Shown here piece after piece: positions 8,057-56,323 of a DNA stretch of 64,000 bases. The notes below the pieces were generated by a model. That model worked only from the letters and a program-made list of their open reading frames with translations, searched no databases and was not told where the DNA came from. The stretch is from Hyphomicrobiales bacterium 4NK60-0047b (GTDB taxonomy: Bacteria; Pseudomonadota; Alphaproteobacteria; Rhizobiales; HXMU1428-3): assembly GCA_040367435.1 (NCBI GenBank), contig BAABWY010000002.1:186001-250000 (forward strand), in the 5' to 3' direction. Numbering within the stretch: the first letter of the stretch is position 1; every line of letters starts with the position of its first letter. Both the position numbers and the translations under genes were made by a program.

Positions 8057-8094
8057 GCGCGGTTGCTGGTGGGCAACCTGAAGCGCCACTAAAA
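8057..8094 (+). repeat. Repeat A copy 2, tandem unit 1
   Basis: Outer stem GCGC/GCGC, inner stem GGTTGC/GCAACC, loop TGGTGG, bulge TGAA, tail CCACTAAAA. First of three head-to-tail units (spacing about 38 bp) directly after the flgF stop. Confidence 0.9.
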
Positions 8095-8095
8095 T

Positions 8096-8132
8096 ACGGT
8101 TGCTGGTGGGCAACCTGAAGCGCCACTAAAAA
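8096..8132 (+). repeat. Repeat A copy 3, tandem unit 2
   Basis: Inner stem GGTTGC/GCAACC, loop TGGTGG, tail CCACTAAAA. The 5' outer-stem half is TAC, so the outer stem is lost here. Confidence 0.88.
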
Positions 8133-8133
8133 A

Positions 8134-8169
8134 CACGGTTGCTTGTGGGCAACTCAAGCGCCACTAAAA
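8134..8169 (+). repeat. Repeat A copy 4, tandem unit 3
   Basis: GGTTGC, loop TTGTGG, GCAAC, then TCAAGCGCCACTAAAA. A one-base loss shortens the bulge. Third tandem unit between flgF and flgG. Confidence 0.85.
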
Positions 8170-20853: not shown

Positions 20854-21172
20854 AGAATTAATCTCCGTATTTGATTGTTAAACCACATTGTGTATCTGAC
20901 GTTGTGTGGCTGCGTTGAAAAGAACATGGACCATCGCGCCGGAGAAAAAAAGAGCACCTCACAGCCCCGTGAAATCGTTTGATAATTGGGGTTGAAAGAG
21001 AGGTGTTTCGTGATCAGTTCTCACGCCCGCGTGAAGCTCACTCGCGCAAACGAGAGCGAAGACCTAACTCACCCTCGCATTCCCGTGAACAACCGAACCA
21101 AGCCATCTTTAAAAAATAGCAAATCACTATGAGAAAGAAAAAAATAAGAAAAACCAGGCCAGATAGTGAATT
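20854..21172. other. Intergenic region, no gene seen
   Basis: Upstream region of the small secreted protein gene, which should hold its promoter. A hairpin-forming stretch at about 20955-21008 has CACCTC pairing with GAGGTG and GCCCC with GGGGT. Nothing else was identified. Confidence 0.4.
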
Positions 21173-21173
21173 C

Positions 21174-21374
21174 TGAAGAAGGAGTGACACCACTTCAGCA
21201 TCAGGACATGGCGCAGCGCCAAGCCTAGCCCGGCGCAAGCGCCGCACAGCGTGGGTTGCTACGCCGGATGCATAGTGGGCATCTGAAGGCGCCCTTAAAA
21301 GAGTGGGCAACCTGAAGCACCTTTAAAATGCAGACCCATGAGCTTCAGCTCATAGAATAGCCGTGAGAGAGAGA
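21174..21374 (+). repeat. Repeat B copy 2, split by nested A elements
   Basis: GAAGAAGGAG, hairpin 1, GGACATGGCG, hairpin 3 CCGGCGCAAGCGCCG, then a block of A elements (21252-21330), then hairpin 4 (ATGAGC-TTCA-GCTCAT) and GAATAGCCGTGAGAGA. Removing the A block restores a normal B copy. Confidence 0.8.
21252..21330 (+). repeat. Repeat A copy 6, with a second A inside its loop
   Basis: Outer A: GGTTGCTA (up to 21261) continues at 21303 as GTGGGCAACCTGAAGC. The interruption, 21262-21302, is itself an A: outer stem CGCC/GGCG, inner stem GGATGC/GCATC, loop ATAGTGG, tail CCCTTAAAA. Excising it recreates an intact outer element. Confidence 0.82.
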
Positions 21375-21387
21375 GAGAAAGATCCTG

Positions 21388-21431
21388 GGCGCCCGCGACG
21401 CCCGCAGCGTAACGAGGATGCGCAAACAAAA
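21388..21431 (+). repeat. Element C copy 1
   Basis: GCGACGCCCGCAGCGTAACG-AGGATGCGC followed by AAACAAAAAA. It shares its core (CCCGCAGCGTA-CGAGGA) with 21513-21553 and, more loosely, with the insertion at 56219-56272. Confidence 0.55.
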
Positions 21432-21499
21432 AACTACCGCCATCGCACTTGGCTAAATGGGCAGTGAATAACAAATCATAATGTACGGAATAATTATAC

Positions 21500-21518
21500 T
21501 GGCTGGGGTGGCCACGCG
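21500..21518 (-). pseudogene. tRNA-Gln remnant
   Basis: TGGCTGGGG joined to TGGCCACGC corresponds to both ends of the neighbouring tRNA-Gln with about 53 internal bases missing. It fits decay of a tandem tRNA duplicate. Confidence 0.5.
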
Positions 21519-21553
21519 ACGCCCGCAGCGTAGCGAGGACGCGCAAACAAGAA
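21513..21553 (+). repeat. Element C copy 2
   Basis: GCGACGCCCGCAGCGTAGCG-AGGACGCGC followed by AAACAAGAAA. Second copy in the tandem duplication. Confidence 0.55.
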
Positions 21554-21623
21554 ATCTACCGCCCATAACACTTGGTCAAATGCGTCAATTAAAAACAAAT
21601 CATATTATACGGAAAAAGAAAAT

Positions 21624-49486: not shown

Positions 49487-49647
49487 ATACGAAGAAGGAG
49501 TTCAGCCCTTTTCGGGTTGAAGGACATGGCATAGCGCCAGCGAAGCCCGGTGCGTTACGCCGCCCCTCGGAAGGCTGCCGCTTCAGTAGCGCGGTTGTTA
49601 GTGGGCAACCTGAAGCGCCACCAAAAAAGCAATAGCCGTGAGAGAGA
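49487..49647 (+). repeat. Repeat B copy 6 with an A element inserted in hairpin 4
   Basis: ACGAAGAAGGAG; hairpin 1 TCAGCCC/GGGTTGA; GGACATG; hairpin 3 CCGGTGCGTTACGCCG; CTCGGAAGGCTGC; then an A element (49588-49628) where hairpin 4 should close; AATAGCCGTGAGAGA. The basal pair AGGCT/AGCC still spans the insertion. It ends 16 bp before the xthA ATG. Confidence 0.88.
49588..49628 (+). repeat. Repeat A copy 11, inside B copy 6
   Basis: GCGC/GCGC outer stem, GGTTGT/GCAACC inner stem (one G-T pair), loop TAGTGG, tail CCACCAAAAAA. It interrupts hairpin 4 of the B element. Confidence 0.88.
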
Positions 49648-56159: not shown

Positions 56160-56323
56160 ACGATGAAGGAGTGACACCACTTCAGCATCAGGACATGACG
56201 CCTTTGGCGTCCGGTGCACAAGATCAGCCCGAACGGAGCGTAGCGAGTACGGATAAGCTGATCGCAAAAAAAAGCACCGCCCAACGGAGGGCCAGCAGCG
56301 AAGCTGCGGAATAGCCCGTGAGT
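56160..56323 (+). repeat. Repeat B copy 9, with an insertion in hairpin 3
   Basis: GATGAAGGAG; hairpin 1 region AGTG-ACAC-CACT; GGACATG; hairpin 2 GACGCC/GGCGTC; hairpin 3 CCGGTGC ... GCACCG with ~54 bp inserted in its loop; ACGGAGGGC; hairpin 4 GCAGC/GCTGC; AATAGCCCGTGAG. Between convergent yciI and plsC, so not a gene leader. Confidence 0.87.
56219..56272 (+). repeat. Insertion in B copy 9, element C-like
   Basis: GATCAGC and GCTGATC bracket a core containing GGAGCGTAGCGAGTACGG, followed by GCAAAAAAAA. The core and A-rich 3' end resemble element C at 21.4-21.5 kb. Confidence 0.5.

Follow-up and report, generated by a model that had tools for sequence, protein, structure and literature searches.

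The window, the whole 64,000-nt stretch that was analysed (positions 186001-250000 of contig C2 of this genome, G000, whose contigs are written C1, C2, C3 and so on), carries beside a tRNA-Gln gene a multi-hairpin repeat, B, which hosts a smaller hairpin element, A, and this copy of A is itself interrupted by a second A (Table 1). The earlier note on this DNA had placed a complete 41-bp A of a different stem inside the loop of another A, and its positions were exact to the base: GGTTGCTA (21254-21261) is followed by a 41-bp insert, CGCCGGATGCATAGTGGGCATCTGAAGGCGCCCTTAAAAGA, a complete hairpin with a stem type other than that of the outer A, and then by GTGGGCAACCTGAAG (21303-21317). With the insert removed, the sequence reads GGTTGCTAGTGGGCAACCTGAAG, a form of A that is among the two commonest. 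The note had also held that excision rebuilds a perfect outer element; this is correct for the core, but the outer stem is imperfect (CGTG vs GCAC), as it is in the relative G002. The host B did not appear in that note. When folded as single-stranded DNA, the nest was not unusually stable (z of -1.03 on the plus strand and -0.28 on the minus strand). An Rfam search of the whole window at the gathering score matched only tRNA and ffh, and at a relaxed E the interval 21150-21400 gave two matches, both far below the gathering score. A plasmid search with 21160-21370 gave no match. A further hairpin repeat (CGCGACGCCCGCAGCGTAACGAGGATGCGCAAACAAAAAA) is present twice, in direct orientation, at 21394-21433 and 21515-21554, adjoining the tRNA-Gln; by eye its core resembles that of element C, described below, and more copies stand at that place in the genome G001.

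Table 1. Repeat features of the window, in window positions
Feature	Position	Strand	Basis
Short array of A, copies matched at 8062, 8099 and 8138	8057..8160	+	pattern and structural scan
Multi-hairpin repeat B (GAAGAAGGAGTG to GAATAGCCGTGAGA), in which the outer A lies	21175..21368	+	
Hairpin 3 of this B (GGCGCAAGCGCC), empty here, filled with C in the G002 orthologue	21232..21243	+	
Outer A, left arm and first loop bases (GGTTGC TA)	21254..21261	+	sequence
Inner A, 41 bp: CGCC GGATGC ATAGTGG GCATC TGAA GGCG CCCTTAAAAGA	21262..21302	+	sequence, folding
Inner A, order of parts: outer stem, core stem, loop, 3' arm of core stem, bulge, outer stem, A-rich tail	21262..21302	+	
Outer A, remainder: GTGG, GCAACC arm, TGAA bulge, GCAC, tail CTTTAAAA	21303..21328	+	sequence
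Second B, A in last hairpin	49494..49646	+	
C element (AAGATCAGCCCGAACGGAGCG..GCTGATCGCAAAAAAA) in the hairpin-3 loop of another B-like repeat	56220..56272	+	

A is a discrete unit in which a core stem is stacked on a variable outer stem of about 4 bp. Among 154 copies found by a strict rule, the core was GGTTGC/GCAAC in 86, GGATGC/GCATC in 61 and GGTTTC/GAAAC in 7. The loop mostly ends in GTGG (TGGTGG in 33 and TAGTGG in 30 of the 154), a TGAA bulge lies on the 3' side, and 49 solitary copies gave the tail consensus cActAAAAaa. The outer stem paired at all four positions in 63 of 112 unique copies (G-T allowed), while re-dealing the 3' sides 1000 times gave a mean of 23.4 and a maximum of 34, which indicates that the structure of A is kept while its sequence changes. 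A pseudoknot pairing the GTGG loop with the CACTA tail was considered and rejected (mean helix 2.97, against 2.96 with re-dealt tails, and no extra covariation), and so was a terminator function, since by eye no T run stands 3' of the hairpin in the copies read. With at most one mismatch, GGTTGCNRGTGGGCAACC occurs at 217 places in G000, and a reversed-pattern control at none. The exact pattern, which misses other stem types, was searched in 101 genomes (G000, 7 others of the genus and 93 of the order) and was present in 7, all in the genus (7 of 8, the one without it being G006), and in 0 of the 93 other members of the order. Within the genus, the elements are plentiful in G000, G001, G002, G004 and G005 and scarce in G003, G006 and G007. 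A search of open papers returned no description of such repeats in the genus.

The part of G000 that was read comes to 576 kb, which is 17% of the genome and was partly picked for containing matches. A tolerant parser, in which arms may differ by one base, found 15 sites of A within A, with inner and outer copies on the same strand; its sole opposite-strand row was a same-strand site read via the palindrome, and there was no genuine opposite-strand nest. Three shuffles gave 0, 0 and 0 same-strand nests and 0, 1 and 0 opposite-strand rows, so that the arrangement exceeds chance. Simple copies numbered 385 with the same parser, over a shuffled background of 110-149. An earlier nest rule arrived at the same number, 15, once duplicates and a spurious row had been dropped, with one site different; a strict nest rule gave 7 nests in G000, 2 in G002 and none on opposite strands. 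Further nests that these rules did not return were noticed by eye, among them C8:122.3 kb and C3:135.9 kb.

The junctions of the nests are not uniform, and bases were lost at some landing sites. In about 8 of the 15, the named locus included, the inner copy ends in TTAAAAGA or similar and GTGG follows; in 4, an inner GGATGC..GAAGC(A/T)(A/C)AGAAAA is followed by the outer right arm. At C7:53540 the junction reads TTTGT/CCCGGTTGC..GCAAAAAA/GGCATC, the nest at C2:367718 has an inner copy of the GGTTTC type, as does another found by the strict nest rule at C1:1032548, and C1:110751 fits none of these classes clearly. The unit boundary between TA and GTGG that had been proposed from the named locus is therefore only one junction class, and with other junctions elsewhere in the loop it is not a fixed boundary. 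No target-site duplication was established by eye. The inner copy is of a single type in about 8 of the 15 nests, which may go back to a single event, and nesting may be no commoner than would follow from random intergenic landing. Two joined-flank tests of junction position (50 matches against 36-49 with re-dealt flanks; 11 against a control mean of 14.95) were uninformative, one reason being that any joined flank can receive its arms from an array.

We then compared the named locus between genomes. G002 is the closest relative found, with a DNA identity of 94% beside the locus and about 85-95% in longer regional matches. The orthologous site in G002 adjoins the same tRNA-Gln and contains the full set of B, outer A and inner A; in addition, C occupies the hairpin-3 loop of this B, a loop that is empty in the window. 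At this locus G004 has B without A, and G001 a B remnant with C and without A. The orthologue of the locus with the outer A but without the inner A, which the earlier note had proposed to look for, was not found at this place. C11:26.2 kb carries a B-A-A compound that is related to this one (88% over 84 bp). The presence of the nest in G002 and this similar compound indicate that the nest is not recent, and judged from these sequences it probably spread partly as a compound. In the simplest order of events, B would have come first and A second, the inner A would have followed while G000 and G002 were still one lineage, and C would have arrived last, in G002; the presence of C in G001 and G002 and its absence from G000 and G004 would need two landings or losses. 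We also observed that a G002 contig (G002:C11, L069) starts at position 1 just upstream of the B element of this locus; such repeats may limit the assembly of such genomes.

The nest had been put forward as direct evidence that A propagates by insertion. The named locus gives no clean proof of this, given the shared nest in G002 and the C11:26.2 kb compound, and insertion into loops is supported by other loci, where simple or empty sites do exist. The note had reserved local duplication or chance for the case that related strains all share the full unit and no other nests exist; of the two, the first is partly the case, as G002, the sole relative in which the nest was found, shares it, and the second is not, as other nests are present. 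At C7:53540 the array in G000 contains a nested unit next to un-nested ones whose tails are similar. In G002 the orthologous array consists entirely of simple units, and the inner unit type is seen neither elsewhere in the array of G000 nor in that of G002. At C7:33308 A is nested in G000, simple in G001 and absent from G002 and G004, for which separate landings at one spot and losses fit equally well. In the arrays at C3:82026, C3:97041 and C3:135925, a unit or two of each carries a nest, next to un-nested units whose tails are identical or almost so. The nests at C3:82026 and C3:97041 are also in G002, and for the C3:135925 array G002 has a deletion derivative (at C3:135981). At C3:286024 the neighbours are likewise un-nested, but their tail is different. 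Loops of B gave similar pairs: at C2:261.9 kb the hairpin-2 loop reads GACGCC/A/ATGGCGTC in G002 and GACGCCACAAGCGTC in G000, and at C2:302.45 kb A lies in the hairpin-5 loop, which is GTTTT in G002. Orthologue or neighbour comparison thus shows insertion of A into loops at several loci. In the region of C3:102529, G002:C1 has a compound of A and other palindromes inside a short palindrome, CTTACCAAGGTAAG; it resembles the mosaic repeats of Rhizobiales.

A also turns over between the sister genomes. Over three syntenic regions (294 kb of G002), 65 blocks were compared, of which 22 were equal, 30 had more A in G000 and 13 had more in G002; a few blocks were double-counted, and 11 copies lay outside the anchors. 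Array length, too, differs between G000 and G002.

Hairpins of B also serve as hosts. A simple rule gave 45 B in the 576 kb, with an A-like match inside 16, C inside 3 and both inside 1. C is a third hairpin element, GATCAGCCCGAACGGAGCG..GCTGATC, with an A-rich end, and the copy at window position 56220 is absent from the orthologous place in G002. Of all strict A copies, 15 of 154 lie within a B, 14 of them on its strand, the exception being the copy at C3:234424, which runs opposite to the B around it. Several B copies have A in place of the 3' arm of hairpin 5, not in the loop (TTCAG/TAGCGC..). At C2:303.1 kb, G000 has a segment of 101 bp that G002 lacks; it includes a C-like hairpin, and its ends may carry a 3-bp TAG repeat.

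Both elements have a strong strand polarity: 151 of the 154 strict A copies and all 45 B in the 576 kb lie on the majority strand of their contig. Three A copies, at C1:321.7 kb and at C3:234.4 kb, run against it. The nest at C8:122.3 kb also runs opposite to its contig majority, and together with the opposite-strand copy at C3:234424 it shows that polarity is not absolute. In all 15 stretches the majority strand had more A than T, and this held outside long reading frames too; genes in these stretches lie on both strands. On C1, 37 of the 41 listed A copies are on the plus strand, 16S and rpoB are on the minus strand, and the plus-strand GC skew is negative (mean -0.135 over 13 loci). GC skew is clear on C1 and most of C2 and is near zero or of mixed sign elsewhere, and for this reason AT skew and gene markers were used for polarity. 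Highly expressed genes normally run with the replication fork. Since A runs opposite to 16S and rpoB on C1, its A-tailed sense strand is probably the lagging strand, as judged by gene markers and skew.

In order to find a possible mover, we searched for known enzymes by profile. The Y1 transposase profile PF01797 (Y1_Tnp) had no match in G000 and, in the genus, matches in one of eight genomes only (G002, 2 matches). The reverse transcriptase profile PF00078 (RVT_1) had none in G000 and none in G002, and matches in 2 of the 8 genomes. These are results of profile searches and not proof against such enzymes; with neither found in G000, both candidates for the mover were set aside there. Long segments unique to one sister genome, screened for a mobility gene, held reading frames that looked ordinary by eye.

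The reading we favour, which to our judgement stands about level between right and wrong, is that A, a hairpin element, is non-autonomous and that at replication forks it is copied in by an enzyme other than the recognised kinds. The element would be a mobile hairpin of about 40 nt, with a variable outer stem, the core GGNTGC/GCAN'C, a loop ending in GTGG and a TGAA bulge, followed by the outer-stem partner and a tail like CACTAAAA. It would be copied into new sites at the single-stranded side of the fork, nearly always with one polarity, and the loops of existing hairpins, those of other A copies and of B, would be among its landing sites. Local arrays would then change in length via tandem duplication and deletion. 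The mover would be a trans-acting enzyme that is not a recognisable reverse transcriptase or Y1 transposase, and the polarity would come from insertion and not from selection. In favour of this explanation are the same-strand nests, the polarity of A and B with its A-over-T and gene markers, the pairs of filled and empty or simple sites and the pairing of the outer stem. Against it count the profile searches that gave no enzyme in G000, the uneven junctions with bases lost at some landing sites, the missing target-site duplication, the exceptions to polarity, the shared inner type of about half the nests, the drop to 7 nests with the strict nest rule, and the replacement of the hairpin-5 arm in B by A, which clean transposition would not do.

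Fork-coupled activity on hairpins, with its even prospects, is preferred to an enzyme-free template switch, which is possible and the less probable of the two. Here lagging-strand synthesis would stall at a hairpin, copy another exposed hairpin and return; the result would be a copy on the same strand, in the loop or close to it, with minor losses. Such switching would account for the strand polarity, for the loss or change of loop bases at certain junctions and the replaced hairpin-5 arms, for the failure of the profile searches in G000 and for arrays that vary in length between sister genomes. However, random ends would be expected from it and the inserts are one discrete unit with its own tail, and the copies are dispersed over many contigs.

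The remaining models have low probability. Selection could hold the orientation of A if it were a functional site like chromosome-orienting motifs, in line with a polarity that follows replication markers and a structure kept with compensating changes; but the differences in copies between G000 and G002 (30, 13 and 22 equal of 65 blocks) and copies lying within one another make this quite improbable. It is very improbable that no insertion took place and that the nests are what two deletions left of tandem arrays, or a single old compound that was duplicated: the deletion derivative at C3:135981, the common inner type of about 8 of 15 nests and the likeness of the C11:26.2 kb compound to the named nest agree with this, but it is already weakened by C7:53540, where the inner type is foreign to both arrays, and it faces several junctions and inner types as well as A and C inside B hairpins. 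Reverse transcription of a hairpin RNA with an A-rich 3' end into the fork, a route for which RNA intermediates have reportedly been proposed in the small dispersed repeats (SDR) of Nostoc, would suit the A-rich 3' tail of A and the likewise A-rich end on that side in the C and B copies looked at by eye, but with RVT_1 in only 2 of the 8 genomes and in neither sister, and a tail that is the sequence cActAAAA and not plain A, it is highly improbable.

Beyond the genus, two viral contigs of 70% GC (IMG/VR UViG_3300002461_000487 and UViG_3300035000_000010) carry the plan of A. A structural scan found 6 A-like copies in piece L171, 6 in L173 and 9 in L174, in both orientations, with none in 20 shuffles each; the same scan found none in L172 and L175, and L176 and L177 also had none. 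L178, another piece of one viral contig, had 5 copies, one of them GGCTGC, counted without shuffles. In L171, L173 and L174 the stems are GGTTGC, GGATGC and GGGTGC, the last of them new, and in several places the A-like hairpins of the viral pieces form divergent pairs. All four forms of the middle pair of the core stem occur when G000 and the viral contigs are taken together. Terminase, portal and head protease are encoded by L171, and tail proteins by L174; the A-like stretch of L174 had no match in plasmids or phages. Descent, transfer and convergence all fit this likeness. A class of mutually nesting hairpins that is fork-coupled and loop-targeting, uses neither a Y1 transposase nor a reverse transcriptase and shares its plan (GGNTGC stem, GTGG loop, GAA bulge) with high-GC phages would be a wider, and doubtful, reading.

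How very small bacterial palindromic repeats move is still largely an open question. This genus offers nests that order insertions, filled and empty sister sites, strong polarity and no recognisable standard enzyme in G000, so that a single-strand transposase, template switching and RNA copying can be told apart.

Small mobile palindromes are already known. IS1397 inserts into the loops of palindromic units, so that the palindrome is a target as with A; unlike A, it is an insertion sequence that carries genes. The closest behaviour is that of the SDR of Nostoc punctiforme, which Elhai et al. are said to have described in 2008 as tiny structured repeats of 21-27 nt with compensatory changes; their copies are reportedly nested within copies and confined to a group of relatives. 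Compared by features, A shares the nesting (15 sites with the tolerant and 7 with the strict nest rule) and the tiny structured form, but it has about 40 nt and not 21-27, an A-rich tail and a strong strand polarity. These SDR are also named in excerpts of PMC3116915. Mobile hairpins of tens of nt whose units merge, as with A, are described in excerpts on yeast mitochondrial GC clusters (PMC4478555) and sponge mitochondrial hairpin elements (PMC2800124); these are organellar and, in those excerpts, change mainly in their loops, whereas A mostly keeps its GTGG loop and varies its stems. REP and REPIN sequences with TnpA-REP (RAYT) resemble A, as far as excerpts of PMC6006769 and PMC3116915 describe them, in being short imperfect palindromes, extragenic and of high copy number, with a single-stranded DNA logic. 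Membership of A in this system fails on three points: the Y1 transposase was not found in 7 of the 8 genomes of the genus, G000 included; the REP foot GT[AG]G stands 5' of the outer stem in 0 of 154 strict copies on the sense strand, GTGG lying in the loop; and in place of inverted pairs, A has one orientation per contig (151 of 154). The IS200/IS605 elements (IS608, ISDra2), according to excerpts of PMC6006769, insert into the lagging-strand template and are recognised by their hairpins. A would share the lagging-strand and hairpin logic, and its orientation is tied to replication by the 16S, rpoB and skew markers. It differs in that no Y1 gene was found in G000, and it may differ in its target: no fixed tetranucleotide was seen, GTGG following one class of nests only and the 49 solitary tails being followed by no consensus beyond A/G. 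Compared with known small palindromes, what is new in A is the fork polarity, the mutual nesting and the missing enzyme taken together.
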